NCBI GenBank assembly: GCA_013619125.1
Contig: JABXKS010000084.1
Span: 1-64,000 of the forward strand
DNA from: Clostridiales bacterium
GTDB lineage: Bacteria; Bacillota; Clostridia; Tissierellales; GPF-1
Length of the DNA stretch: 64,000 nt
Direction: 5' to 3'
Shown here piece by piece: positions 40,321 to 57,823 of the stretch. The position numbers and the translations under genes were made by a program. The notes below the pieces were generated by a model. That model was not told the origin of the DNA. It was given only the letters and a program-made list of their open reading frames with translations, and did no database searches. Within the stretch, counting starts at the first letter, position 1, and each line of letters starts with the position of its first letter.

Positions 40321-40590
40321 TTATAGTCGATGCATCGCGTGATAGATCTCTTCGTTCTGGATCTGTATCGATACATTCATTTTATCGCCAACCACTTTGA
40401 GTTCTTTTTGCACCTCTTCAAAACAAATCGCTGCATGGCTGACATCTACCATCATCATCATGGTAAAGAATTGCTGCATAATCGTCTGGCTAATATCCAA
40501 CACATTGACTTGCTGTTTCGCCAAAGTTGCGGTTACCTCCGCAATAATCCCAACTTGATCTTCTCCAATTACCGTTACAATTGCCTTCAT
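40321..40590 (-). CDS. ACT-domain protein (UPF0237 type)
   Basis: Single ACT domain pair in 89 residues: [20 protein letters not shown] (first strand, helix), [20 protein letters not shown] (second strand), and a C-terminal part. The UPF0237 group is often next to UPF0210, as here. ACT domains bind amino acids, so this is a plausible glycine-responsive regulator or subunit of the UPF0210 protein. A longer in-frame extension runs back through the riboswitch and is rejected: AAGGGAGG sits before ATG 40590. Confidence 0.9.
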
Positions 40591-40613
40591 ATCTTTTTCC
40601 TCCCTTAAATAAA

Positions 40614-40638
40614 CAAAAAACCGCGCTAATAAGCGCGG
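40614..40638 (-). terminator. Riboswitch-linked intrinsic terminator
   Basis: CCGCGCT (minus strand, 40638-40632) pairs with AGCGCGG (40627-40621) over a TATT loop, followed by T7 at 40620-40614. It lies between the glycine aptamer and the ACT gene start, so it is the probable expression platform. Confidence 0.85.
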
Positions 40639-40656
40639 AAAGATTCCATCTTCTGC

Positions 40657-40752
40657 GCCCTGTCCTTTTACCTGAGAGTTTCGCCTTTCGGCTTTCCCCT
40701 TCGGTGCTCCTTGGGTGTAGCAATCACCCGAGTCTCTCCAGAGTTCTGTCCA
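40657..40752 (-). ncRNA. Glycine riboswitch (single aptamer)
   Basis: The minus strand contains the conserved glycine aptamer core: CTCTGGAGAGACTC near 40747, then GGAGCACCGAAGGGG, a short CCGAAAGG hairpin, then ACTCTCAGGTAAAAGGACAG. These are the hallmark conserved blocks (ACCGAAGG and CTCAGGTAAAAGGACAG). Only one aptamer is evident. It precedes a terminator at 40614-40638 and the ACT-UPF0210 genes, so glycine should switch their transcription. Confidence 0.93.
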
Positions 40753-40876
40753 CAAGCGGTCACACATCGGCTTCCGCTTCTTTCATCCAGGGTATTCAAT
40801 TCTTTATCATGAATTTTGCCTTTCACCTTGTTCAAGCCAAACCATCTTCATCTTAATCGCATGCTAGCAGATTGGT

Positions 40877-43770: not shown

Positions 43771-44610
43771 TTATCCACCGATTTGCACCCGGAATCCACG
43801 CTCTTCAAAGATCCCTCGAAACGATTCTACTTCCTCTTTTCCCATGGGATTTACCCCTTCCAATGCATATTCCCGTCCCAATGCTTGATACTTGCCTTCC
43901 CCATATTGATGAAAGGGCAAGAGATGAATTTCCTCAATATGCAGAGAACGAACACGATCTGCAATCTGAATCAAGTTCGCTTTAGTCGCCGTATACCCTG
44001 GAATTAAGGGAATCCGCACAACCACCTTAGCCTGCGCCTCCCTCAAAAGAACGAGTCGGCTGAACAATGCTTCGAAAGATGCACCTAACACCCGTTGTGC
44101 TTCCTGATCATCTGCGATCTTCAAGTCAAAAAGCCAAAGATCCACTTCCTGTTCCAAGGCCTCATAGGCTTCCAGGGGTCCGGCACCGCATGTTTCCACC
44201 GCTACATGAATCCCTTCCGCCTTCAGCTTCGGTATGGCTTCTCTTAAGAACGCAGCCCATTCCATGGGCTCTCCCCCTGAGAAGGTAACACCGCCACTCG
44301 TTGCTTCGTAAAAGATCGCATCTTTTGTTGCGATCCTCACCACTTGGTCAACATCCATCCACTCGCCAATCTCCGCCATGGCGCCCGTCGGACAAAACGC
44401 CGAGGATTGATTGCAGGCCTGGCAGCTGGGTGCGCTGCATTGAATGCAGAGGCTCTGCTTGCGCATCACCTCGATTTCTCTCTTTTGACTCTCGGGATTG
44501 GCGCACCATGGGCAGTGCAACGCGCATCCCTTTAAAAAAATCAGGGTGCGGATGCCGCCTCCATCATGGAGACTGAATTTTTGTGTATTCATTACAATCG
44601 CTTTTTCCAT
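43771..44610 (-). CDS. pflC: Glycyl radical enzyme activase (PflC-like, radical SAM)
   Basis: Radical SAM activase of 279 residues that installs the glycyl radical on the partner enzyme encoded upstream (10-base gap). The 4Fe-4S motif is KGCALHCPWCANPES (CxxxCxxC). A ferredoxin-like insert follows (CIQCSAPSCQACNQ and CPTGAM). TSGGVTFSGGEPMEW, the SAM-binding segment, and the DLKIAD helix are present. The adjacent gene is a PflD orthologue, so PflC-like is the best assignment, although the activase substrate is only inferred from position. The length is close to that of E. coli PflC. Confidence 0.88.
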   Translation of the reverse strand: MEKAIVMNTQKFSLHDGGGIRTLIFLKGCALHCPWCANPESQKREIEVMRKQSLCIQCSAPSCQACNQSSAFCPTGAMAEIGEWMDVDQVVRIATKDAIFYEATSGGVTFSGGEPMEWAAFLREAIPKLKAEGIHVAVETCGAGPLEAYEALEQEVDLWLFDLKIADDQEAQRVLGASFEALFSRLVLLREAQAKVVVRIPLIPGYTATKANLIQIADRVRSLHIEEIHLLPFHQYGEGKYQALGREYALEGVNPMGKEEVESFRGIFEERGFRVQIGG

Positions 44611-44620
44611 TGATCCATCC

Positions 44621-46897
44621 TTATAGTTGATGTTCCGTCCGAGCGATAATATCCTCTTGAATCCGCTTGTTCAACTCCACAAAGATCGCCGAGTATCCCG
44701 CGACTCGGATCACCAAATCGGAATACTTCTCCGGGTGTGCCTGGGCCGCTCGCAAGGTCTCTGCCGAAACAATATTAAACTGGATATGCTGGATTTTAAG
44801 ACGCATATACGCCTTCAAATATCCCACCATCCGTTTAATGCCCGCCTCCCCTTCCAATGTTGCGGGATGAAACTTCACATTCAAAAGCGAGCCATTCGTT
44901 AAAAGAGTATGATCCAACCGTGATACAGATTGTAAAACCGCCGTTGGTCCCTCTTTGTCTCGCCCAACCATAGGCGACAGGCCTCCGTCTGCCAATTGCT
45001 CTCTCGCCTTTCTACCATCAGGAGTAGCCCCTACAGCTTCACCCAAAGGTACATGGGCGGATACGGTATAGGACCCCGGCATAAATCGACCACCCCGTGT
45101 ATTCTCATATTGAACAACCTCTTCACAATAGAAGCGTAAAAACTCTGCCCCAATGGCATCCACTTCTTCTTGATCATTGCCGAACTTTTTATATCGATGA
45201 ATCAATCGCTGACGAAGAATCTCTTCCCCTTGATAGTCAACGGCTAAAATTTGTTGTAATTCTTCCAGACTCATCTGCTTTTCCTCGAAGACCAGGCGCT
45301 TAATCGCAAATAATGCATCGCTCAAGTTTGCTGTTCCAATCCCCTGAACCCCTGAAAAATTATATTTCATCCCTCCTGAAGTCACATCACGACTGGTTGC
45401 CACACATTCTTCCATCAAGGAGGAAAGCAGTGGAATCGGCGCGAATTTCGCGTGGGCTCCGTCCACTACATTCGATCCCTCCACCATTCGTTTCACATAA
45501 GTTTGAATGGTGGCCTTGATGGTATCAACCAAGCACCGATAGGAGGTGATCTTGGATGCATGCTCTTGTAAAACTACTTCTAAAACCTTCAAAAGGTTGA
45601 ATAACGCAATATCATGAAGCCCGTACAGCTTGCCTGGAAGACTCAGCTCTACGCAGCCAACTACCGCATAGTCCCGCGCATCGGTCAATGAAATGCCGCG
45701 ATTCAAGAAGCCGGGGATAATCACTTCATCATTGAAAACCTGTGGAATTCCCGTACCCAATCGAATTGTCTCTGCTGTTTTTCTAAAAAAGCTCTCCGGT
45801 GTTCGTTCATTCACTCGCACCCCTAGATTGGGTTGCGGCAATCGAATCTCCGCATAGGTTTCCAGAATCCATTCTGACAACAGATTAACCGCATCGCAGC
45901 CTTCAGCATCGATTCCGCCTAGGATAATCGTGTATCCCGTCGGAAAACCAGCAAAGTATTTCGCGCTCTCCTGGCTTCGAAGCAAGACAACATCATTCAT
46001 CTTGATCCACAACATTTTAAGAATTTCTTTCAATTTTTCCTCGGACAACCCCCGCTTCAAATCCCGCTCCAGATAGGGAACCATATACTGATCAAAACGT
46101 CCGCAAGAAATACTGGAGGCATTGGATTCATATTGAAGGGCAAGATTGATAAACCAGAACAATTGAACCGCTTCATAAAAGGTCTGAGGCGCTTCCGTAG
46201 CTACTCGAACAACAATATGTCGAAGCTCTTCCAACTCCTCCACCCGCTTTGGATCCATTCTCTTCGTCTTTTCAATTTCAATCATTTCACCATAGCGAAG
46301 AATATGACGGGAAACCGCCCGAAGGGTAATGGACATGGCTTGATGGATTTCTGTCTGCGGTGATTGACTTTCCACCTCTTCCAACAAACCAATGATGCCC
46401 AACTTCAATACACGTTCAAAATCAGGAATAATATGGCCTTGCCCCTTATCCGTCTGATTCAATTTAACTATCTTCGTATCCCGTGCCGCCTGCACTTCCG
46501 CTGGAATCAAGTCTTCTATTTTATCCTTTAAGCTCTTCTCTTTCCAATAAGGGTATAAATCCTCTTCAAACTCTTTCCGTTCTGTATCATTAAATACAAA
46601 GGGATCTTGTGGCCGTGAACCTAAGGAGTTTCGTTCCTCATAGATCCAATAGGGACTCATCTCTGGGGACATAATCCCACTTCGCGGCTTGACTGTTCGG
46701 TTCCCCGCTAAAATTTCCCCTTCCCGCAAAGAAATTTCGACCGAGTCCAGGATATGCGCCGTAGCCTTTGCGCGACGGAGATTCACTGATTCTCCCATCG
46801 TTAAACGATAGCTTTCCGTATAATAGCGTGCACGCTCGATGGAAATTTCCCTTGGGTGTGCAAGAAGCGATTGTTTCATTTTTTCAAATCGATTCAT
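44621..46897 (-). CDS. pflD: PflD-type glycyl radical enzyme (1,5-anhydrohexitol-6-phosphate lyase-like)
   Basis: Glycyl radical enzyme of 758 residues, very close in length and sequence landmarks to E. coli PflD as I remember it: GNRTVKPRSGIMSPEM, NQTDKGQGHIIPDFERVL, RFDQYMVPYLERDL, AGFPTGYTIILGGID and GIPQVFNDEVIIPGFLNRGI. The radical glycine is in RVAGYSAIFVELN and the catalytic cysteine and glutamate in VVGCVELSLPGKLYGLHD. E. coli PflD opens the ring of 1,5-anhydromannitol-6-phosphate to 1-deoxyfructose-6-phosphate. ATG 46897 is chosen because AAAGGA lies 8 bases upstream; GTG 46903 is the alternative. Divergent from the DeoR-PTS region. Confidence 0.93.
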   Translation of the reverse strand: MNRFEKMKQSLLAHPREISIERARYYTESYRLTMGESVNLRRAKATAHILDSVEISLREGEILAGNRTVKPRSGIMSPEMSPYWIYEERNSLGSRPQDPFVFNDTERKEFEEDLYPYWKEKSLKDKIEDLIPAEVQAARDTKIVKLNQTDKGQGHIIPDFERVLKLGIIGLLEEVESQSPQTEIHQAMSITLRAVSRHILRYGEMIEIEKTKRMDPKRVEELEELRHIVVRVATEAPQTFYEAVQLFWFINLALQYESNASSISCGRFDQYMVPYLERDLKRGLSEEKLKEILKMLWIKMNDVVLLRSQESAKYFAGFPTGYTIILGGIDAEGCDAVNLLSEWILETYAEIRLPQPNLGVRVNERTPESFFRKTAETIRLGTGIPQVFNDEVIIPGFLNRGISLTDARDYAVVGCVELSLPGKLYGLHDIALFNLLKVLEVVLQEHASKITSYRCLVDTIKATIQTYVKRMVEGSNVVDGAHAKFAPIPLLSSLMEECVATSRDVTSGGMKYNFSGVQGIGTANLSDALFAIKRLVFEEKQMSLEELQQILAVDYQGEEILRQRLIHRYKKFGNDQEEVDAIGAEFLRFYCEEVVQYENTRGGRFMPGSYTVSAHVPLGEAVGATPDGRKAREQLADGGLSPMVGRDKEGPTAVLQSVSRLDHTLLTNGSLLNVKFHPATLEGEAGIKRMVGYLKAYMRLKIQHIQFNIVSAETLRAAQAHPEKYSDLVIRVAGYSAIFVELNKRIQEDIIARTEHQL

Positions 46898-46912
46898 CTC
46901 CACGATCCTTTC

Positions 46913-46930
46913 ATTATTGTTTGTTATTAT
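46913..46930 (-). promoter_or_regulatory. Candidate DeoR operator at the glycyl radical operon
   Basis: The minus strand reads ATAATAACAAACAATAAT just downstream of the -10 box. Its AACAATAAT core is shared with the element on the other side of the divergent region (47071-47090). DeoR-family regulators bind such AT-rich direct repeats. It would block transcription of the pflD operon. Confidence 0.5.
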
Positions 46931-46942
46931 TTCCTCGCATTC

Positions 46943-46971
46943 ATTATAGTTGATTTGATTTACACCTGCAA
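46943..46971 (-). promoter_or_regulatory. Near-consensus promoter of the glycyl radical operon
   Basis: On the minus strand TTGCAG (46971-46966), 17 bases, TATAAT (46948-46943). Confidence 0.75.
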
Positions 46972-47032
46972 ATTGTTCATTTTTTTCCTGATTAATGTGT
47001 TCATTATCTTACTATATCTTGGTAATATCGCC

Positions 47033-47061
47033 TTGCAACTCACTTTCAGCTTCGATATAAT
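47033..47061 (+). promoter_or_regulatory. Near-consensus promoter of the DeoR-PTS transcript
   Basis: TTGCAA at 47033-47038, 17 bases, TATAAT at 47056-47061. Its mirror-image partner for the pflD operon lies 60 bases away on the other strand. Confidence 0.78.
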
Positions 47062-47070
47062 AAAATCACA

Positions 47071-47090
47071 AAACAATAAAAAACAATAAT
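47071..47090 (+). promoter_or_regulatory. Candidate DeoR operator at the deoR promoter
   Basis: Direct repeat AAACAATAAA AAACAATAAT, 10 bases downstream of the -10 box and ending 11 bases before the regulator's ATG. It shares AACAATAAT with 46913-46921 on the opposite strand, fitting autoregulation plus control of the divergent operon. Confidence 0.55.
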
Positions 47091-47101
47091 CGAGGTGAAA
47101 A

Positions 47102-47860
47102 ATGTTTCCTCAAGAACGCATGTCTCAAATTATTCAAATTCTAAAACAAGAAGGCCGAGTTCGGGTCAAAGACTTAAGCCAGCAATTCAACATGTCGGAA
47201 GACGCCATTCGAAAAGACCTTCAATCCTTGGAAAAGGAAGGCATCCTAGAACGGACTTATGGCGGTGGGATCCTGAAAACCTTACCGGTTGAAATTCAGC
47301 CCATCGACGCGCGACGTTCAACCCTGTCCTTAGGACAGCATCAAATTGCGAAAAAAGCAATGGCACTGATTGAACCCAAGGATGTGATCTTTATCGACAT
47401 TTCATCCACCACTCTTGCCTTGGCGGAAGAATTAGTTGGTTACAAGCATCCCCTTACGGTCGTCACCAACGATCTGGAGATTCTCTATCGACTCTGCCGC
47501 AATCCACATCTACGCATGGTTTGCCCCGGCGGTGTTTACAACCAGGATGAAGGCGGTTTCACTGGAACGGAAACCATGGAAAATCTCACCCGAATTCGGG
47601 TGAACAAGATCTTTATGAGCACCTGCGGCATTCCATCCGACCTTGGAATCATGACCTACAACATTGATGATGGAAATACCAAGCGCGTTTTAATGTCCAT
47701 TGCTCATCAAAAAATCCTCTTGGTAGAAACGAAGAAATTCCATTCATCTGGATTGTATCAATTTGCAAACCTAAAGGACTTTGATTACATTATTAGTGAA
47801 AAGCCCTTGGAACCGGAGATTCAAGCGCGCATTGCAGAATATCCGATCCATCTACTATAA
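47102..47860 (+). CDS. DeoR-family transcriptional regulator
   Basis: Sugar-phosphate-responsive repressor of 252 residues. HTH at about 5-58 (IIQILKQEGRVRVKDLSQQF), then the DeoR sensor domain (DVIFIDISSTTLALAEEL; CPGGVYNQDEGGFTGTETME; KRVLMSIAHQKILLVETKKF). First gene of the PTS-linked transcript, with its own promoter at 47033-47061. Candidate operators lie on both sides of the divergent region, so it likely represses itself with the downstream genes and the glycyl radical operon. GAGGTG precedes the ATG. Confidence 0.92.
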   Translation: MFPQERMSQIIQILKQEGRVRVKDLSQQFNMSEDAIRKDLQSLEKEGILERTYGGGILKTLPVEIQPIDARRSTLSLGQHQIAKKAMALIEPKDVIFIDISSTTLALAEELVGYKHPLTVVTNDLEILYRLCRNPHLRMVCPGGVYNQDEGGFTGTETMENLTRIRVNKIFMSTCGIPSDLGIMTYNIDDGNTKRVLMSIAHQKILLVETKKFHSSGLYQFANLKDFDYIISEKPLEPEIQARIAEYPIHLL

Positions 47861-47869
47861 GGAGGAATT

Positions 47870-48739
47870 ATGAAACGAGTATTGATAACAGGCGGAAAGG
47901 GATTTTTAATGTCCCGCACCACAAAAACCTACCAAGACCAATGGGAGATCTTAAGCCTAGACCGCACACAACTCGACATTACCGACCACGAAGCAGTCAG
48001 CCAAACCTTTGAAAGCTTTCAACCGACCCATGTCATTCATGCGGCCGCCATTGCCATGACACAGGTCTGCGAAGATCATCCAGACCTAGCCTATCGCGTC
48101 AACACGGAAGCCGCGGAGCATATCGCGAAAGAATGCAAAAAACATGGTGCGAAACTCTTGTTTTTCAGCACGGAACAAGTATTCAATGGCAACAAAGAGG
48201 CAGGACCTTACACTGTAGACACCGTCCCTGTTCCAGATACCGTCTATGGACAAACCAAATACGCGGCGGAAAAAGCCATTCAAACCATAGAAGCCGACGC
48301 CGTTATTTTACGTCTCAGCTGGCTGTTTGGCTTGCCGGAACGAAACCTCCCCAATGGCTACACCCTCTTTTGGGACGTTTTCTCGGCAGCACTTCGCCAT
48401 CAACCGACCCAGGCATCGCCCAACGAATTTCGGGGCGTCACCTGCGCTTACGACTTAATTGATCAATTCGATTCGATCTTCGCGCTTCCAGCGGGTATCT
48501 ATCACTTTGGAAGTGAAAACACCATGAGCCGCTATGAAACTGCTCGCTTGATCCTCAAAGAAATCAATATCAGCGAAGCCATCATCGATGAAACCATTCT
48601 TTGCGCAAGCGAAAAATTCAAGGATCATCCGCGCGATCTTCGTCTTGACTATACACAAACAAAAATAGCCGGCATTTCGATTCTTCCCACAGAAGAAAGC
48701 ATCCGTAAAGAACTTGCCGCTTTTCACTATTCTTTATAA
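47870..48739 (+). CDS. RmlD-like short-chain dehydrogenase/reductase
   Basis: Extended SDR of 289 residues related to dTDP-4-dehydrorhamnose reductase. The N-terminal motif is ITGGKGFLMS, in which the third glycine of the usual GxxGFLG is replaced by methionine. The catalytic pair is in VYGQTKYAAEK (YxxxK), preceded by STEQVFNG. The lack of sugar-nucleotide genes and the PTS context suggest it acts on a small sugar or hydroxycarbonyl compound rather than a nucleotide sugar; this is inference. AAGGAGG precedes the ATG and it begins 10 bases after deoR. Confidence 0.85.
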   Translation: MKRVLITGGKGFLMSRTTKTYQDQWEILSLDRTQLDITDHEAVSQTFESFQPTHVIHAAAIAMTQVCEDHPDLAYRVNTEAAEHIAKECKKHGAKLLFFSTEQVFNGNKEAGPYTVDTVPVPDTVYGQTKYAAEKAIQTIEADAVILRLSWLFGLPERNLPNGYTLFWDVFSAALRHQPTQASPNEFRGVTCAYDLIDQFDSIFALPAGIYHFGSENTMSRYETARLILKEINISEAIIDETILCASEKFKDHPRDLRLDYTQTKIAGISILPTEESIRKELAAFHYSL

Positions 48740-48753
48740 ATAGGAGGAAACTT

Positions 48754-49743
48754 ATGTATTATCCATTAACATTCAAATCCGTCTATAAGAAAAAGCCTTG
48801 GGGCTGCACCCATTTTTCCGACTTTCGTTCCGATGTTCCAGAGGGAATGATCGGTGAATCTTGGGATGTCTGCAACCACGCCAATGGCAGCAGCGTCGTT
48901 ACTAATGGACCTTTGACAGGCAAAAACTTGCAGGAACTGATCGACATGGACGCCAAAGGGTTTCTCGGCACAGAAATCCCAGCGGAGTGGTTCCCGCTTC
49001 TATATAAGCAGATTGCCACCAGCGAGTCCCTCTCTGTGCAGGTGCACCCCGATGATACCTACGCCATGGAGCATGAAGGGGAAATGGGAAAAACGGAAGC
49101 TTGGTACGTTGTTGACACCTATTCCAATGAAGCCTGCCTCTTTGTCGGACTTAATGATTGCAATGAAGCGCAATTCCGCCAAGCCATTGAAGAAAATCGA
49201 TTCGACGAATACCTGCATAAGATCCCCGTTGAAAAAGGCGATGTCGTGTATGTCGCGACCGGAACCATTCATGCAATCGGACCCGATGTCTTAGTCGCAG
49301 AAATCAACCAGAATTCCGATACCACCTATCGCGTATATGATTACGGCCGCGGCCGGGAACTCCATATCGAAAAAGCGTTAGCCGTAACGAATCTTGATTT
49401 AAAAGGCAATCTGATCAAGGGATTGAAAAATGAGCAAGAGACCTATGCTCATACTTATTATTGCTATGACCAAAACTTTTCTTTGGAACATTTGGATGTG
49501 CATCCTTACTATGAATCGGAAAGCGACAAAGAGCGATTCCATATCCTCTCTTGCATCGACGGGGAAGGCGCGATCACAACCAATGAGATGACGGTTCCCT
49601 TTCAATTGGGCGACAGTCTACTAATTCCCGCTGCTTTGGGCGCTTATGAAATCAGTGGCGATTGTCAATTGTTGAAAACCTATCAGCCGAATGTGGCAAA
49701 ACTGGATCAAGAAATTCTTGATCTAGTCAATCAGGAGGATTAA
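48754..49743 (+). CDS. manA: Class I mannose-6-phosphate isomerase
   Basis: Cupin-fold, zinc-dependent isomerase (mannose-6-P to fructose-6-P) of 329 residues. PWGCTHFSDF near the start, KQIATSESLSVQVHPDD (metal ligands), MGKTEAWYVVD, GTIHAIGPDVLVAEINQNSD and YRVYDYGR are all family motifs. In this operon it probably feeds a PTS-imported mannose- or anhydromannitol-like phosphate towards fructose-type intermediates, but the paralogue could have another substrate. AGGAGG before the ATG; the next gene starts 2 bases downstream of the stop. Confidence 0.93.
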   Translation: MYYPLTFKSVYKKKPWGCTHFSDFRSDVPEGMIGESWDVCNHANGSSVVTNGPLTGKNLQELIDMDAKGFLGTEIPAEWFPLLYKQIATSESLSVQVHPDDTYAMEHEGEMGKTEAWYVVDTYSNEACLFVGLNDCNEAQFRQAIEENRFDEYLHKIPVEKGDVVYVATGTIHAIGPDVLVAEINQNSDTTYRVYDYGRGRELHIEKALAVTNLDLKGNLIKGLKNEQETYAHTYYCYDQNFSLEHLDVHPYYESESDKERFHILSCIDGEGAITTNEMTVPFQLGDSLLIPAALGAYEISGDCQLLKTYQPNVAKLDQEILDLVNQED

Positions 49744-49744
49744 T

Positions 49745-50674
49745 ATGATCATCACGGTTACCCTGAACCCGGCTGTGGATCGCACTGTCTATCTACAGGA
49801 CTTGCATCCCGGCGAGGTCAACGTCATCGTAAAGGCTGTAAAAGATCCTGGAGGAAAAGGCATCAACGTCTCCCGCTTTATGAAGAAAAACGGGTTGGAA
49901 ACCTTAGCGATGGGAATGATGGCTGGTGTCAACGGTCATTGGATTCAATCAAAACTGGATCAACTGGATATTGCCACAAACTTTACCTGGATCGACGGCG
50001 AAACGCGAACCAATGAGAAGATCGTATCCCTTTCAACTGGAGAAACCACCGACCTAAATGAAAAAGGGCCCTCGATTCAAGAAGCCGAGATTCAACAGTT
50101 TCTAGAAACCTATTCAGCTGTCCTTCAACCCGATCAATGGGTTGTGCTTGCCGGCTCGCTGCCAAAAGGGATTCCGGCAAGTTTTTACACTACCTTGGTG
50201 GAAAAAGCAAAAGCAAAGGGCGCGAAGGTTGCGTTGGATATCAACGGTACCTTGCTGAAGGAAAATCTGAACGCTAAGCCCGATTTCATCAAACCCAACA
50301 AAGAAGAACTGGAAGCCCTTGTTGGTAAAACGCTCAACACCATAGAGGAAATCCGACTGGCGGTCCAGCCCCTTCTTTCCCGTGGGATTGAACGTGTTTG
50401 CGTCTCACTGGGCGCCGACGGTTCTCTTTTCTTCGACAAGGATCAGATGATCCAAGTTTGTGTACCGAAAGTTCAGGTGCTAAGCACTGTAGGCGCTGGG
50501 GATTCCTTGGTTGCCGGCTATGTCTGGGCCATGGATTCTCATCTGCCGGTAGAGGAATGCGTGAAAATTGCCTCGGCGGCATCTGTTATTGCGGTTACCA
50601 AAGAGGGAACCGATTTTGCCACAAATACGGAAATCAATAAAATCTTGCCACATTTGCACATTGAAAGTAAATAA
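49745..50674 (+). CDS. PfkB-family 1-phosphofructokinase / tagatose-6-P kinase
   Basis: PfkB kinase of 309 residues of the FruK/LacC group. ITVTLNPAVDRTVYL at the start, DPGGKGINVSRFMKKNG (substrate site), CVSLGADGSLFF and VGAGDSLVAGYVWAM (anion hole and catalytic D) are present. It should phosphorylate a hexose monophosphate to a bisphosphate. FruK (fructose-1-P) and LacC (tagatose-6-P) cannot be separated by eye; the GatZ-like gene downstream makes the latter possible. A terminator follows. Confidence 0.9.
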   Translation: MIITVTLNPAVDRTVYLQDLHPGEVNVIVKAVKDPGGKGINVSRFMKKNGLETLAMGMMAGVNGHWIQSKLDQLDIATNFTWIDGETRTNEKIVSLSTGETTDLNEKGPSIQEAEIQQFLETYSAVLQPDQWVVLAGSLPKGIPASFYTTLVEKAKAKGAKVALDINGTLLKENLNAKPDFIKPNKEELEALVGKTLNTIEEIRLAVQPLLSRGIERVCVSLGADGSLFFDKDQMIQVCVPKVQVLSTVGAGDSLVAGYVWAMDSHLPVEECVKIASAASVIAVTKEGTDFATNTEINKILPHLHIESK

Positions 50675-50689
50675 TGATAAAATTAACCC

Positions 50690-50719
50690 AATCCACCTTC
50701 CTCGAAAGGTGGATTTTTT
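50690..50719 (+). terminator. Terminator after the kinase gene
   Basis: AATCCACCTT (50690-50699) pairs with AAGGTGGATT (50706-50715), followed by T6. It divides the region into deoR-sdr-manA-kinase and regulator-PTS-gatZ transcripts. Confidence 0.85.
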
Positions 50720-50861
50720 GTGTTCTTGCGCCTTTAGTCAATCTTTGCCACATTATTTCGGTATGTATTATGAAGATAAACGCTTTCTTTCCATGATAAG
50801 ATGAGGCCACAGAAACATATAGTATGTTTTTGCCTCATAGGCCAAACAGAAAGGATGTTTC

Positions 50862-52898
50862 ATGAAAACCTTAAAGAACAAACGGAGCCGTGAGATACTG
50901 AAAATCCTTGCCGCTCAATCAAAACCCGTTACCATCAATACGATTGCCATGCGTTTGGATGTATCAAATCGCTCGATTCGAAATGATCTTACAGATCTCA
51001 GCGATTTTCTGATGAAGAAATATCCATCCATTCATCTGCACAAGAAACCCCGCATTGGGGTTTGGATAGAAACAGATGAGCTAGGAAAACGTAAACTCAA
51101 TCATTTAATTGAAGAATCTTCCCAATACGTTTCGCCATTCAATGCAGAAGACCGCCGATTCTTTTTGATCAAGCAGCTTCTATTGGCACAAGGATCCCTG
51201 ACGATGCAAAAACTAGCCGATGAATTATTCGTTAGCCGCGTTACCGTCTACAATGATCTGGAAGACGTTGAAGAATGGTTGTCTCACTACGATATCCTTT
51301 TAAGACGCAAGCAAAAGGAAGGGTTGAGCATTCGGGGCAATGAACAACAGATCCGCAACGCGATGGCCGATCTTCTGGACATCCTCAAAACGGATCAGGA
51401 TCTAGAGAGCATTCTTCAAGTCAGCGACGATCACAATTCAAGTCGCATCGACTATGTGAACTATCTTCAACTAAAAGAATTGTTTCCGGATACCGACTTG
51501 GAAGCCATCGAACGGATTTTAAAGGAAGCGGAACGGGACATGAAATTTCCACTGGCGGAAGACGCTTTCACATGTCTTTTGATTCATATCGCGATTAGCT
51601 TGGAGCGAATCAAAAAGAAAAAAGACATCAAAATGGAAAGTGATCAACTTCTTTCCGTTCAGCAAACACGAGAATATGAGATCGCCGAACAAATCACCAC
51701 TCAAATTGAGAGTCTTTACAATCTGAAAATACCAGAAGCGGAAGTCGGATATATCTCCCTTCACATTCTGGGATCAAAAATGCAACAAGGATTCACAATT
51801 GATCACTCTGAAGAAATCATCGAAAACTCCGATGACTTTGTCCGTGATTTGGCCAAAGAAATTATCAACTTAGTCGGGATTGTCTTATCAACAAACCTGC
51901 AAGACGATCAGCAATTATTGACCGGATTGATACTTCATCTTCGACCCACAATCAATCGATTGAAGTATGGACTTCGATTGAAGAACCCGCTTCTCGATGA
52001 AATCAAAAACAAATATCCGTCGGTATTTGGTGCAGCATGGTCTAGCAGTGTTCTCTTTGAGAAATACTATGGGATCAAGGTAACGGAAGAAGAGGTTGCT
52101 TACCTCGCTATGCACTTTGGTGCGGCGCTGGAAAGAAAGAAAACCCTCACTCGTGCCGTTATTGTATGTTCCAGTGGCATGGGCACCGCGCAATTGGCGG
52201 CCGTCCGATTGGAGCAATCCATTTCCGATCTGAAAATTATTGAAATCACATCCTACAACGATGTGAGAAAAATTCAAAGCCTCAACTATGACATCATTAT
52301 TTCGACCATCCCTATAAAGGGCTATGACAAACCCGTTATTCTGATCAATCCTTTGGTGGGCGATCGAGATATCCAAAATATCAGAAAATATATCCGCAAT
52401 ATAACAGAAACCAAAACCTTCCGAAGCAACGCCTTAGAAGGACCGCATCCAGAATTGTATCGCCGGGATCTGATCTTCCCGCAACAAACCTTCACCGACG
52501 CGGAATCCGCGATTCGCTTTCTCGGAAGTGAATTGGAAGCACATGGAGCCGTAACCAAAGGCTTCGTCCAAAGCTGTTTAGAACGAGAAAAGATTACCCA
52601 TACATCGATCGGATACGGGATTGCAATCCCTCATGGAGAACAACCCTTCGTATCTCGACCTGCCATTGCGGTCATGTCCTTGGACAAACCGATCAAATGG
52701 GGCGATGATTCTGTGGAACTCATCTTTATGCTTGCATTCAAGTTTGAAGACAGTCGCTATGTTCGACAATTCTTCAAACGCTTCTATGCCATGATCCGTA
52801 ACAAGTCTTTGGTTCATGCCATTCAATCGGCAAAAGACGCCGACTCTATTTATCAAATCGTTACAGGAAAGGAAGTAAACCATGAATTCAATTATTAA
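50862..52898 (+). CDS. PRD-containing PTS transcriptional activator (MtlR/LicR type)
   Basis: DNA-binding regulator of 678 residues controlled by PTS phosphorylation. HTH domains at about 8-60 and 105-145, PRD1 about 190-300 (H242, H301), PRD2 about 330-430 (H359, H418), EIIB-like domain with VIVCSSGMG (C436), and an EIIA-like domain about 540-678 with GIAIPHGEQP. All phosphorylatable histidines are in place. It should activate the EIIA-EIIC-EIIB genes that follow, depending on sugar flux. AAAGGATG precedes the ATG. Confidence 0.93.
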   Translation: MKTLKNKRSREILKILAAQSKPVTINTIAMRLDVSNRSIRNDLTDLSDFLMKKYPSIHLHKKPRIGVWIETDELGKRKLNHLIEESSQYVSPFNAEDRRFFLIKQLLLAQGSLTMQKLADELFVSRVTVYNDLEDVEEWLSHYDILLRRKQKEGLSIRGNEQQIRNAMADLLDILKTDQDLESILQVSDDHNSSRIDYVNYLQLKELFPDTDLEAIERILKEAERDMKFPLAEDAFTCLLIHIAISLERIKKKKDIKMESDQLLSVQQTREYEIAEQITTQIESLYNLKIPEAEVGYISLHILGSKMQQGFTIDHSEEIIENSDDFVRDLAKEIINLVGIVLSTNLQDDQQLLTGLILHLRPTINRLKYGLRLKNPLLDEIKNKYPSVFGAAWSSSVLFEKYYGIKVTEEEVAYLAMHFGAALERKKTLTRAVIVCSSGMGTAQLAAVRLEQSISDLKIIEITSYNDVRKIQSLNYDIIISTIPIKGYDKPVILINPLVGDRDIQNIRKYIRNITETKTFRSNALEGPHPELYRRDLIFPQQTFTDAESAIRFLGSELEAHGAVTKGFVQSCLEREKITHTSIGYGIAIPHGEQPFVSRPAIAVMSLDKPIKWGDDSVELIFMLAFKFEDSRYVRQFFKRFYAMIRNKSLVHAIQSAKDADSIYQIVTGKEVNHEFNY

Positions 52899-53349
52899 CG
52901 AATCACTAATTAATCTTACCCTCTCAGCAGATGATAAGAAAACCGCAATTACACAACTGGCCAAACAAATCCAACTAGACGAGCGCTTGAATGATTTTGA
53001 CGCCTATTTGGAAGAAGTCTTCCGCCGCGAAGCTCTTTCAACAACAGGCATCGGCTTCGGTGTCGGCATTCCCCACGGAAAAACGGACGCAGTAAAAATT
53101 CCAACTGTTGCCTTTGGCCGCAGTGTTGAAGGAATCGAATGGGAATCCCTTGATGAGAAACCCGTACATATGGTTTTTCTGATCGCCGTTCCTGAATCAG
53201 CCTCTTCCAATGCGCATTTGAAAATCCTTGCGGCACTTTCCCGCCGCTTAATGAAAGAAGAGTTCCGGCAAGAATTGATGCAATCGAAAGACGAAGCATC
53301 ACTTCTAAGTCAACTCAATGAAATCTTCGAACTCGCACTACAGAAATAA
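52882..53349 (+). CDS. PTS fructose-type EIIA component
   Basis: Phosphotransfer protein of 155 residues. H65 in VGIPHGKTDA accepts phosphate from HPr. DKKTAITQLAKQI at the start and MVFLIAVPE in the core are typical of EIIA-Fru. It overlaps the regulator gene by 17 bases, so the two are coupled. It phosphorylates the separate EIIB encoded at 54585. The EIIC gene follows 154 bases later, after a possible attenuator. Confidence 0.93.
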   Translation: MNSIINESLINLTLSADDKKTAITQLAKQIQLDERLNDFDAYLEEVFRREALSTTGIGFGVGIPHGKTDAVKIPTVAFGRSVEGIEWESLDEKPVHMVFLIAVPESASSNAHLKILAALSRRLMKEEFRQELMQSKDEASLLSQLNEIFELALQK

Positions 53350-53363
53350 ATCTTTGTTAGTTA

Positions 53364-53436
53364 CAGCTGCATGCCAGATGGGAATCAACCGATTCCCCCT
53401 TTCTCTGGTCTGCCGCTGAAACATAAATTTTTTTTT
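53364..53436 (+). promoter_or_regulatory. Possible attenuator or operator hairpin before EIIC
   Basis: GGGAATC (53380-53386) pairs with GATTCCC (53391-53397), with an outer CCAGA/TCTGG stem, and then a run of nine T at 53428-53436, about 9 to 19 bases after the stems depending on the outermost pairing. It may be a regulated terminator between EIIA and EIIC; the gap between stem and T-run weakens this. Confidence 0.35.
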
Positions 53437-53503
53437 GAATCACCGGGCCCGATTTGAAAGAAAACGCTATTATTCTAAAAAACCGATAGGAGGTTTCTCA
53501 AAA

Positions 53504-54556
53504 ATGAAAGAATTAATGAAAAACACGCGACAGCATCTGATGACAGGTGTATCGTACATGATCCCGTTCGTTGTAGCTGGTGGTGTATTACTTGCACTTG
53601 CTGTAATGATCTCAGGTAAAGCTGCCGTTCCAGATACTGGAATCTTGAAAGCAATGTCCGATATTGGTATTGCCGGTTTAACCTTATTTGTACCTGTACT
53701 TGGTGGATTCATTGCATTTTCTATGGTTGACCGTCCTGGTATCGCACCTGGTATGATTGGCGCGTACTTGGCAAACTCTGTTGGCGCTGGTTTCTTGGGC
53801 GGAATCGCTGCTGGTCTTCTTGCTGGTATCGTTGTTTTCTACTTGAAGAAAATTAAAGTTCCATCCGTAATGCGTTCTGTAATGCCAATCTTCGTTATTC
53901 CTCTAGTAGGTACTTTGGCAGTAGGTCTATTGATCACATATGTAATCGGTACGCCAATCGCCAACGTAATGGAAGGTTTGAATGGCTGGTTAGGCTCTAT
54001 GCAAGGATCTTCTAAGATCGTTCTAGGAATCATCTTGGGATCTATGATGGCATTCGACATGGGTGGCCCTGTTAATAAAACAGCGTACTTCTTCGCTTCA
54101 GGATTGATCTTAACTCATCCAGAATTGATGGGCGCTGTAGGTGTTGCAATCTGTACACCTCCACTCGGCATGGCTCTTGCAACTTTTATCGCACCAAAGA
54201 AATACCGTACAGAAGAACGAGAAGCTGGTAAAGCCGCTTTGATCATGGGCTTCATCGGAATCACAGAAGGCGCAATTCCATTCGCCGCTTCCGATCCACT
54301 TCGCGTAATTCCTGCGATTGTTCTAGGTGGTGCTGCCGGTTCTGTTACAGCATTCTTAGTTGGTGCAGCAAACCATGCTCCTTGGGGTGGTTGGATCGTA
54401 TTGCCAGTCGTTGAAAACCGTTTAGGTTACATGTTCGCAACTCTTGTTGGTGTTGTCGTAACAGCCGTAGTTGTTAACTTCTTGAAAAAAGAAGTATCTG
54501 ATGAAGCGACTGAAATAGGCGGAAATATGGACGAATTGGATATCACATTCGAATAA
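53504..54556 (+). CDS. PTS fructose-type EIIC membrane component
   Basis: Sugar permease of 350 residues with about nine hydrophobic segments. SYMIPFVVAGGVLLALAVM at the start, PGIAPGMIGAYL, MMAFDMGGPVNKTAYFFA (conserved FDMGGPVNKxA) and GITEGAIPFAASDP are landmarks of fructose-family EIIC. Codon choice (GGT-, GTT- and GCT-rich) differs from flanking genes, suggesting strong expression or selection. AGGAGG lies 10 bases before ATG 53504. It moves the sugar while EIIB phosphorylates it. Substrate not fixed by sequence. Confidence 0.95.
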   Translation: MKELMKNTRQHLMTGVSYMIPFVVAGGVLLALAVMISGKAAVPDTGILKAMSDIGIAGLTLFVPVLGGFIAFSMVDRPGIAPGMIGAYLANSVGAGFLGGIAAGLLAGIVVFYLKKIKVPSVMRSVMPIFVIPLVGTLAVGLLITYVIGTPIANVMEGLNGWLGSMQGSSKIVLGIILGSMMAFDMGGPVNKTAYFFASGLILTHPELMGAVGVAICTPPLGMALATFIAPKKYRTEEREAGKAALIMGFIGITEGAIPFAASDPLRVIPAIVLGGAAGSVTAFLVGAANHAPWGGWIVLPVVENRLGYMFATLVGVVVTAVVVNFLKKEVSDEATEIGGNMDELDITFE

Positions 54557-54584
54557 GTTAAAACCAGAGAAAGGAAGTGTCAAA

Positions 54585-54905
54585 ATGAAAGTTATAGCTG
54601 TAACTGCATGTCCTTCCGGCGTTGCACATACTTATATGGCTGCTGAAGCCATTGAAATGGCAGCAAAAGAAGCAGGATTCGATATAAAAGTGGAAACACA
54701 AGGATCAATTGGAATTGAAAACGCTTTGACAAAAGAGGATATTACCTCTGCAGATTATGTTGTCTTGACAAAAGATATGCAAATCAAAAACGAAACTCGT
54801 TTTTCAGGGAAAACGGTTGTCCGTGTTACTGTAGGCGATGCTATCAAGAAATCAAACGCGTTGATGAAAAAATTGCAACAACATTACGATTCTAAAAACA
54901 AGTAA
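54585..54905 (+). CDS. PTS fructose-type EIIB component
   Basis: Phosphotransfer domain of 106 residues. C9 in VTACPSGVAHTYMAAEAI carries the phosphate, and the domain is a stand-alone EIIB-Fru. VETQGSIGIENAL and ADYVVLTKDM are typical. It donates phosphate to the sugar at EIIC. Spaced 28 bases from EIIC with AAAGGAAG before the ATG. Confidence 0.95.
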   Translation: MKVIAVTACPSGVAHTYMAAEAIEMAAKEAGFDIKVETQGSIGIENALTKEDITSADYVVLTKDMQIKNETRFSGKTVVRVTVGDAIKKSNALMKKLQQHYDSKNK

Positions 54906-54967
54906 TTGACTGTTAGGCCGACGCATACGCTTCGGCCTTTGTCACGGCAGAAAAAGGAGAAATCATC

Positions 54968-56224
54968 ATGAATCAAAACAATCTAGCTAAATACGTCTCT
55001 TATTTACTTGAAAACCCAAATGATCAAGCAACCATGCTAGGCATTGGACCAATGTCCGATACCTTGATTACCGCTTGTTTTGAACTGGCTGAAGCAAACC
55101 GATTCCCACTCATGTTCATCGCCAGCCGAAATCAGGTTGACCTAGACGAACTTGGCGGCGGCTATGTTTGCGGCTGGGATCAGACACGCTTTGCTGCAGA
55201 TTTGCGTACCATTGCAGAAGAAGTCAAATTCACGGGTGATTACTTCCTTTGCCGCGATCACGGTGGACCTTGGCAACGAGACAAGGAGCGAAACGATCAT
55301 CTTCCAGAAGCAGAAGCGACGAAATTGGCACACCAGTCTTATGAGGCAGATTTGATGAATGGTTTCGATCTTTTACATATCGACCCAACCAAAGATCCGT
55401 ACATCACAGGCAAAGTCATCCCATTAGAAGTTGTTCTTGACCGTACCATCGACCTGATTCGCCATTGTGAGACTTTCAGAAAAGAAAACAACTTGCCTGA
55501 GGTAGCTTATGAAGTTGGCACCGAAGAAACCAATGGCGGTTTAACCTCTTCAGAAGTCTATGAGGGCTTTATCAAGACCTTAACAGAACGATTGGATGCT
55601 GAGAGTCTTCCTCGTCCCGCATTTATCGTTGGTCAAACTGGAACATTAACGCGCTTGACTGAAAATGTTGGACATTTCTCAGCAGAGAATGCAAAAGTTC
55701 TTTCCGCATTAGCAAAAAAATATGGTGTTGGCTTGAAGGAACATAATGGCGATTATCTGCCGGATACTATCTTGCTTCAACATCCAGCCGTTGGCATCAC
55801 AGCCATGAACGTTGCACCTTCTTATGGAACGGCCGAAACAAGGGCTTACCTGAATTTGATGGAAGTCGAGCGACGAGAATTCGAAGCAGGCCGTTTGGCA
55901 AAGCGCTCTTCTCTTCATGCAACCTTGCAAGATGAAGTTCTTGCTGGCGGACGATTCAAGAAATGGCTCGTCGGTGAGCAGCTTGCCATGAGCAACGAAG
56001 AATTAAAAGCGGATTCTGATCTGATGTTTACTATCATAGAGTTGGCCGGCCACTACACTTATAATAACGAAGTCATTAAAGTCGGTTTGAGTGAGCTTTT
56101 TGAAAATCTTTCAAATCTCGGTATTGATGGAAGACGTTATGCGATCAACCAAATCAAAAAGGTGATTCGAAACGAAGCAGAATGTTTCAACCTAGTCGGC
56201 TTGACGGATCGTGTCAATCTTTAA
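54968..56224 (+). CDS. GatZ/KbaZ-family protein (COG4573)
   Basis: TIM-barrel protein of 418 residues, class II tagatose-bisphosphate aldolase non-catalytic subunit family. LCRDHGGPWQRDKERND, FDLLHIDPTKD, YEVGTEETNGGLT, KEHNGDYLPD and MNVAPSYGTAETRAYL are family motifs. Relatives act either as the GatZ partner of GatY or, in other bacteria, as fructose-6-P/tagatose-6-P 4-epimerases. No GatY/KbaY homologue is in the window, favouring a stand-alone catalytic role. Last gene of the PTS transcript, followed by a strong terminator. Confidence 0.9.
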   Translation: MNQNNLAKYVSYLLENPNDQATMLGIGPMSDTLITACFELAEANRFPLMFIASRNQVDLDELGGGYVCGWDQTRFAADLRTIAEEVKFTGDYFLCRDHGGPWQRDKERNDHLPEAEATKLAHQSYEADLMNGFDLLHIDPTKDPYITGKVIPLEVVLDRTIDLIRHCETFRKENNLPEVAYEVGTEETNGGLTSSEVYEGFIKTLTERLDAESLPRPAFIVGQTGTLTRLTENVGHFSAENAKVLSALAKKYGVGLKEHNGDYLPDTILLQHPAVGITAMNVAPSYGTAETRAYLNLMEVERREFEAGRLAKRSSLHATLQDEVLAGGRFKKWLVGEQLAMSNEELKADSDLMFTIIELAGHYTYNNEVIKVGLSELFENLSNLGIDGRRYAINQIKKVIRNEAECFNLVGLTDRVNL

Positions 56225-56250: not shown

Positions 56251-56292
56251 AAAAAGCGCAACCCCATAGTCATATAGGGTTGCGCTTTTTTT
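56251..56292. terminator. Bidirectional terminator
   Basis: AAAAGCGCAACCC (56252-56264) pairs with GGGTTGCGCTTTT (56277-56289), with T-rich tails on both strands, between the GatZ-like gene and the minus-strand flavodoxin gene. Confidence 0.9.
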
Positions 56293-56803: not shown

Positions 56804-57031
56804 TCCACTTATTCCTCCTCGAAACTTTTCAACAAAGGTCCTTTCGAATCAACCCTTGATATCATCCCTGCTGATTAAAGCAGTCTACCCTTTCTATTAC
56901 CCTACAAATCGAGCATTCCATCAGAAATCGGTATAAATGGAAACTATCAACCCTTCATTAAATGACCGAACCCAGTGTCAAGCTTCAGAAACTCTGGTAC
57001 AATAATACCTGTAAGCCCACAGGAGGACCTG

Positions 57032-57823
57032 ATGCTGGATTATCACATTCATTCAAACTTTTCGTTTGATTCCAAAGCGAAGCCTCGTGAAATTTGCGAA
57101 GCTGCTTGTTTTTTGAACATCGATGAAATTGCTATTACCGATCACTTTTCCTTTGCGCCCTATAGCCCAAACTATCTTCACTTCGAGCCAGAGGCGTACT
57201 TCCAAATTTGGACTGAGATGCAGCGGGAATATGTCGATCAATTGACCGTTCGCATTGGAATCGAGCTCGATGAATTTGCCAACTATCCCGAAGCTTCCAA
57301 TCAAATGGCACGTCAATTCCCCTGGGATTTTGTCATCGGAAGCACCCACGACCTGGAAGGCGGCACCTTGCGCACCTACCTGAGAAAATTCGGTGATCAA
57401 GAAAAAACCATTCATTCGTATTACGACGCTCTTTTTCGGGCAATAGAGGTTGGTCATTTTGATGTTTTGGCTCATTTTGATTTAATCAAGCGATATACCG
57501 CCGATGAGGGCTATCCCTTATTGGACGAATTACTTTTCCACGATCAGATCGATGCAATTCTCAAACTGATCATCCAAAAGGGGATCGCACTGGAAGTGAA
57601 TACCTCAGGGCTTTTTCAAGCCTGCCAAGCACCCTTCCCTTCCCTTGAGCTGATCAAACGCTATTATCAGCTTGGCGGACGTTTCATTACAATTGGAAGC
57701 GATGCCCATCAGCCAAAAGATTTGACGCGCGGCTTCAGTACCGTCATTCCACAACTGAAGACCATCGGTTTTACTGGACTTACCATCTTTCAAAAACGCA
57801 AAAAAACAATTCAAACATGGTAA
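57032..57823 (+). CDS. PHP-family (histidinol phosphatase-like) phosphoesterase
   Basis: PHP-domain phosphoesterase of 263 residues. DYHIHSNFSFDSKA supplies the HxH motif, then AITDHFSF, IGIELDEF, FVIGSTHDLEG, VLAHFDLIKRY and TIGSDAHQPKD complete the metal ligands. It resembles HisK-type histidinol-phosphatase, but no his genes are near. ATG 57032 has AGGAGG upstream and is preferred over a longer frame. Terminated by a hairpin at 57822-57854. Confidence 0.88.
   Translation: MLDYHIHSNFSFDSKAKPREICEAACFLNIDEIAITDHFSFAPYSPNYLHFEPEAYFQIWTEMQREYVDQLTVRIGIELDEFANYPEASNQMARQFPWDFVIGSTHDLEGGTLRTYLRKFGDQEKTIHSYYDALFRAIEVGHFDVLAHFDLIKRYTADEGYPLLDELLFHDQIDAILKLIIQKGIALEVNTSGLFQACQAPFPSLELIKRYYQLGGRFITIGSDAHQPKDLTRGFSTVIPQLKTIGFTGLTIFQKRKKTIQTW

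Follow-up and report, generated by a model that had tools for sequence, protein, structure and literature searches.

The window analysed here, a stretch of 64,000 nucleotides on contig C84 of the 3.4 Mb draft genome G000 (98% complete), carries a PflD-type glycyl radical enzyme and its activase on the minus strand, facing a plus-strand gene series led by a DeoR-family repressor. E. coli PflD opens 1,5-anhydromannitol-6-phosphate to 1-deoxyfructose-6-phosphate after import by a PTS (Ma et al. 2024, doi 10.1021/jacs.4c07718, as summarized in the review PMC12441222). The locus raises the question of how the opened sugar is degraded further, as a preliminary description found no FsaA/B-type aldolase (FSA) and no GldA there and concluded that a different route must follow ring opening. 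In E. coli, FsaA/B are said to catalyse the next step to glyceraldehyde-3-phosphate and hydroxyacetone, and GldA reportedly leads on to 1,2-propanediol. Statements on G000 beyond the window derive from searches of genome sequences.

All genes named in the preliminary description were recovered as intact open reading frames in their described places. On the minus strand lie the activase of the PflC type (43771-44610; TIGR02494, 271.2 against a cut-off of 174.35) and, next to it, PflD (44621-46903). The plus-strand series comprises, in this order, the DeoR protein (47102-47860; PF00455/PF08220), an RmlD-like short-chain dehydrogenase (SDR; 47870-48739; PF04321, 171.6), a class I mannose-6-phosphate isomerase (48754-49743; TIGR00218, 150.5 vs 116.2), a PfkB kinase of the 1-phosphofructokinase type (49745-50674; TIGR03828, 336 vs 292), a transcriptional regulator with PRD, EIIB and EIIA domains (50862-52898; PF00874, PF00359 and PF05043), a fructose-type EIIA (52882-53349; TIGR00848, 135.2 vs 103.5), EIIC (likely start at 53504; 53504-54556), EIIB (54585-54905) and a GatZ-like TIM-barrel protein with a zinc site (54968-56224).

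Judged by its sequence, the radical enzyme is a true PflD. It scores above the cut-off of the curated PflD equivalog model (NF007437, 1144.7 vs 1109 bits), shares 57% identity with E. coli PflD, which it matches closely along the whole sequence, and contains both the catalytic Cys-x-Glu motif (GCVE) and the glycyl-radical motif (RVAGYS). The solved structure most closely related to it is 8yjo, which is named PflD. A phylogenetic tree, proposed in the preliminary description as a check because a position outside PflD/YbiW would speak against its claim of a close PflD relative with activase, grouped the enzyme with E. coli PflD and ten further PflD sequences in a clade of 12 rows (SH-aLRT 100), which upholds that claim. 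The E. coli ybiW-ybiY-fsaA system of the 1,5-anhydroglucitol branch has an enzyme of the same superfamily and the same expected product, but YbiW is only 36% identical to the window enzyme and falls outside its clade. The activase is 73-81% identical in congeners and adjoins PflD in the relatives examined. From the 57% identity and the clade, ring opening of 1,5-anhydromannitol-6-phosphate is the predicted activity.

The transporter is of the type found beside E. coli pflD, as had been proposed. EIIC and EIIB exceed the cut-offs of models with the lengths of FrwC (NF007787, 485 vs 426; 359 positions) and FrwB (NF007783, 166.6 vs 135; 106 positions), respectively. In a tree of 101 EIIC rows, the window protein lies inside a grade of PflD-linked EIICs that includes FrwC; its sister is one of the groups formed by EIICs of GatZ-like modules. 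These data support a predicted role of the PTS as importer of 1,5-anhydromannitol, and the tree shows what would be an importer type common to PflD clusters and some GatZ-like modules. As PflD appears to be genuine, EIIB and EIIC are Frw-like and EIIC groups with PflD-linked homologs, this part of the locus is best read as serving import and ring opening of 1,5-anhydromannitol.

Neither an FSA nor a GldA gene is present in the window, as noted before. Elsewhere in the genome, however, an FSA-type gene adjoins nagB (G000:C81:68544-69215). It is the sole TAL/FSA-family gene found in G000, and its product may therefore double as transaldolase. In the congeners G001 and G002, as in G000, an FSA-type gene was the only family member detected, and a housekeeping TalC-type transaldolase was not found. 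The C81 protein, the congeners' copies and all PflD-linked copies contain the FSA signature APYVNR, while nearly all housekeeping copies of relatives have SPF.GR; the two groups are split in the tree with 100/100 support, and the C81 protein, although its score narrowly misses the curated FSA cut-off (TIGR00875, 232.9 vs 245.95 bits), belongs to the FSA clade.

Five relatives from the same order (G049, G028, G025, G048 and G007), with a PflD 58-63% identical to that of the window, have their FSA gene within the PflD cluster, and so does G846, which was found later. In G049 and G028 the gene lies between those for EIIA and EIIC; no FSA remnant was detected by tblastn in the corresponding spacer of the window. 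The PflD clusters of G172 and G277 are devoid of FSA, and both genomes have FSA-type copies elsewhere, that of G172 near an RmlD-like gene, a PRD gene and EIIA. In the genus of the window the FSA-type gene has been kept in all three genomes, unlinked to PflD. Among 60 relatives sampled, FSA-type genes were present in all eight PflD-positive genomes and in at least 6 of the 52 PflD-negative ones (G029, G013, G018, G057, G041 and G035; a lower bound, since weaker hits were only partly motif-checked). Fisher's test with 5/52 gave p = 5e-7 and the association stays strong with six, for genomes that are related and a sample with only eight PflD-positive members, three of them from one genus. With an FSA-type gene in this genome and in every PflD-positive relative sampled, the conclusion that a different route must follow ring opening is not warranted.

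As to the subsequent reduction of hydroxyacetone, no GldA ortholog was detected in G000 at E<=1e-20; orthologs are present in both congeners (57-59% identity), in G049 and in G846. As only 4 of 11 PflD-positive genomes have one, GldA was rejected as a general partner. The iron-dependent alcohol dehydrogenase (Fe-ADH) family has eleven matches in G000, one of them under the family cut-off. The RmlD-like SDR remains under the rmlD equivalog cut-off (TIGR01214, 157.2 vs 224.05). The survey of gene neighbourhoods called for in the preliminary description confirmed its link with PflD: it was found in seven of eight PflD-positive relatives versus 4 of 52 PflD-negative ones, and in G025 and G007 its gene is in line with those for PflD, activase and FSA. 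A link between PflD and the GatZ-like gene was not sustained (see below). Exclusive occurrence of the RmlD-like gene in PflD genomes was rejected in view of the four PflD-negative carriers, in three of which (G026, G010 and G040) it adjoins PRD/PTS genes of the same type. The protein is a candidate 1,5-anhydrofructose-6-phosphate reductase or hydroxyacetone reductase. Gfo/Idh/MocA oxidoreductases also recur in PflD clusters of relatives (L028 2935-4071, L029 13405-14448, L044 7454-8575 and L045 12785-13915); they are nearest to levoglucosan dehydrogenase, though far under its cut-off, and are candidate anhydrofructose reductases.

The GatZ-like protein resembles GatZ and KbaZ, subunits of tagatose-bisphosphate aldolases, in fold, zinc ligands and catalytic Asp. 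Its best structural match is 2fiq (Z 33.3, rmsd 3.6, 374 aligned residues), followed by 3txv, UxaE and class II aldolases. It differs from GatZ and KbaZ in its identity of about 25% to both, in its pocket and in the lack of a GatY partner here; it is recognized by PF08013 (48.8 vs 26.7) but is far under the KbaZ equivalog cut-off (NF012002, 34.5 vs 707). The GatZ zinc ligands and acid D87, H88, E171 and H257 correspond to D97, H98, E186 and H259 in all 84 rows of the subfamily, whereas C20, E44 and K279 are replaced by G27, I51 and N281, likewise in 84 of 84. The subfamily thus has kept the zinc site of GatZ-type C4 epimerases and not the surrounding pocket. GatZ and KbaZ epimerize fructose-6-phosphate and tagatose-6-phosphate at C4, for which a zinc-dependent retro-aldol/aldol mechanism via the four conserved residues was proposed (PMC11907403), and class II aldolases capable of both cleavage and epimerization are known (PMC5434028).

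A scan of species genomes yielded 232 loci related to the GatZ-like gene, the best 80 of which were examined. Fructose-like PTS genes adjoin it in all 80; within 6 kb, transketolase genes occur in 38 and transaldolase or FSA-like genes in 34 of these best 80. PflD is nearby in a single locus of the 80, that of the window genus, and the GatZ-like gene was rejected as PflD-specific. The nearest relatives are found in PTS-transketolase-transaldolase modules of Tolumonas and enterobacteria. We therefore regard the GatZ-like protein as an enzyme of a PTS module that adjoins PflD here, most likely a ketose-phosphate epimerase or aldolase. Its earlier nomination for the route after ring opening is favoured by the retained zinc site and weakened by the missing tie to PflD and by the FSA-type gene in the genome.

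Modules of this kind (L051-L130, e.g. L055, L060, L101 and L110) occur in enterobacteria, streptococci, C. difficile, Collinsella and Listeria, often with transaldolase, a full or split transketolase and a phosphatase of the HAD or PHP type, and represent a widespread putative sugar pathway. Mannoheptulose-7-phosphate is the C4 epimer of sedoheptulose-7-phosphate; that it might be the substrate of such modules is only an idea, for which no paper was found. A gene for a PHP-family, HisJ-like phosphatase (56975-57823) is located 3' of the GatZ-like gene in all three congeners, separated from it in the window by a terminator and an oppositely oriented flavodoxin gene. PHP homologs adjoin GatZ-like genes in L060, L074, L076 and L081.

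Regulation of the locus was described before as apparently resting on one DeoR protein. The divergent region (46904-47101) contains the two near-consensus promoters of that description: TTGCAA-17-TATAAT on the plus strand (47033-47061; 10 of 12 matches in a promoter scan) and TTGCAG-17-TATAAT on the minus strand, read from the sequence with its -10 element ending at 46943; the scan reported the same -10 element with a spacer of 18. Also confirmed were elements downstream of each start, with a pair of AACAATAA at 47072-47089 (0.00 expected by chance in shuffles) and one more copy at 46914-46921 on the minus strand. The element is thus common to the DeoR and PflD sides, and it is conserved in the genus. 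Two congeners share 92% identity with the window across the intergenic region, and the DeoR gene is divergent to PflD in the relatives examined. DeoR may plausibly control both the PflD side and the unit that it heads. The idea of a single DeoR regulator for the entire locus fails, however, because an intrinsic terminator (50690-50715; -13.2 kcal/mol, z -3.4) right after the PfkB gene splits the plus-strand series into two units, because the unit with the PTS and GatZ-like genes brings a PRD regulator of its own, and because no exact AACAATAA, the putative operator, is present near 50.7-50.9 kb upstream of that unit. That this DeoR also governs the PTS unit finds no support in these data. A strong terminator follows the GatZ-like gene (56251-56290, plus strand; -23.6 kcal/mol, z -8.7).

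The EIIA-EIIC spacer (53350-53503, plus strand) is 93% identical in congeners. It folds as a long hairpin followed by a T run (-42.1 kcal/mol, z -3.5). An Rfam search gave no match of the spacer to a known RNA family. The hairpin is possibly an attenuator or a processing site.

Taken together, the cluster probably allows 1,5-anhydro-D-mannitol to be used anaerobically through radical anhydroglycolysis, a known route, with PflD and the PTS in place, FSA unlinked, separate DeoR and PRD units and a side role for the GatZ-like protein. The Frw-type PTS would import 1,5-anhydromannitol as the 6-phosphate, and PflD, activated by its partner, would open the ring to 1-deoxyfructose-6-phosphate. The C81 aldolase is predicted to split this product into glyceraldehyde-3-phosphate and hydroxyacetone; the latter could perhaps be reduced by an alcohol dehydrogenase of the genome or by the RmlD-like SDR. 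Mannose-6-phosphate isomerase and PfkB would most likely handle mannose and fructose phosphates from the same PTS. DeoR would control the divergent PflD and DeoR-SDR-isomerase-PfkB units and the PRD protein the PTS/GatZ-like unit, and the GatZ-like protein may be linked to the PTS as a C4 epimerase or aldolase of ketose phosphates and broaden the sugar range, rather than act in an obligatory step after PflD.

The pathway is thus real and mostly known, while the arrangement is new and the partner enzymes differ. With the E. coli frwCB-pflD-pflC / fsaB-gldA locus it has in common PflD and activase, a FrwC/FrwB-type PTS and an FSA-type aldolase in the genome; unlike there, the cluster is without FSA and no GldA was found in G000, and DeoR, the RmlD-like SDR, mannose-6-phosphate isomerase, PfkB, the PRD regulator and the GatZ-like protein are added. 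The PflD clusters of G049, G028, G025, G007 and G277 share PflD, activase and DeoR with the window and contain mannose-6-phosphate isomerase, PfkB, RmlD-like or Gfo/Idh proteins, PRD and EIIABC in combinations and orders that vary, but mostly include FSA and have no GatZ-like gene. This recently described sugar-ring-opening route therefore sits in differing gene sets among anaerobes.

Three other readings were weighed. The terminator and the separate regulator could mean two systems side by side, a DeoR-SDR-isomerase-PfkB/PflD system for an anhydrosugar and a PRD-PTS-GatZ-like system for a ketose such as tagatose, with conversion of tagatose-6-phosphate to fructose-6-phosphate. G351, C. difficile and Priestia indeed have the complete PRD-EIIA-EIIC-EIIB-GatZ-like set in the absence of PflD, and a kinase of the 1-phosphofructokinase type could serve ketose phosphates. 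Yet the PflD unit would then have no transporter in the cluster, and the window PRD and EIIC proteins are 43-50% and 70-75% identical, respectively, to those of the PflD-linked clusters of G049, G028 and G277, while most GatZ-like modules are less close (PRD mostly 21-31%, 36% in L060; EIIC 35-63%, 67-72% in Leptotrichiaceae). We consider this arrangement unlikely. Replacement of FSA by the GatZ-like protein in this genus, as a zinc aldolase cleaving 1-deoxyfructose-6-phosphate by the retro-aldol half of the C4-epimerase reaction, is in line with the proposed GatZ/KbaZ mechanism, with the dual activities of class II aldolases, with the conserved zinc and acid residues in an altered pocket, and with the presence of FSA in the PflD clusters of the five relatives where the three genomes of this genus have the GatZ-like gene instead. 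The protein could take over this cleavage, but that is less likely because the FSA-type gene is retained in all three genomes. Moreover, the neighbourhoods described above, with PTS genes and no PflD in 79 of the best 80 loci, indicate that the ancestral job of the protein was not deoxyfructose-6-phosphate cleavage, and we regard the replacement as quite unlikely.

That a different anhydro- or deoxy-sugar phosphate is the substrate of PflD, or that the RmlD-like SDR makes the PflD substrate in the cell from 1,5-anhydrofructose-6-phosphate, is improbable. The recurrence of the SDR with PflD and with PRD-PTS genes speaks for such a source, as do Gfo/Idh/MocA oxidoreductases in the PflD clusters of G028, G025, G277 and G172 and the reduction of 1,5-anhydrofructose to 1,5-anhydromannitol by Rhizobiaceae (PMC12441222). 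A different substrate is at odds with the match to E. coli PflD, and an additional reductase would supply the same 1,5-anhydromannitol substrate, so that this proposal refines the use of 1,5-anhydro-D-mannitol by anhydroglycolysis and does not replace it.

Two orphans emerge from the comparison, namely the RmlD-like reductase, a recurrent companion of PflD, and a widespread PTS-linked GatZ-like enzyme, found in C. difficile, Collinsella, streptococci and Klebsiella oxytoca. It is a doubtful conjecture that the latter subfamily consists of active zinc aldolases or C4 epimerases of deoxy- or higher ketose phosphates, recruited in this genus to 1-deoxyfructose-6-phosphate as a second solution for the aldol step; no assay of the subfamily on such substrates was found in the literature. 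If the protein does cleave or epimerize deoxyketose phosphates, this activity would account for a PTS module that more than two hundred genomes carry.

Two further observations were made. In two genomes of another family (L134 8126-14539 and L135 8672-15241), a PflD-like enzyme (48-49% identical to E. coli PflD) and a YbiW-like enzyme are encoded in one series with sugar kinase and ABC transporter genes and no PTS. In the window, a glycine riboswitch aptamer (RF00504, 63.4 bits) is located at 40650-40751 on the minus strand, within or upstream of the open reading frame at 40321-40767 on the same strand.
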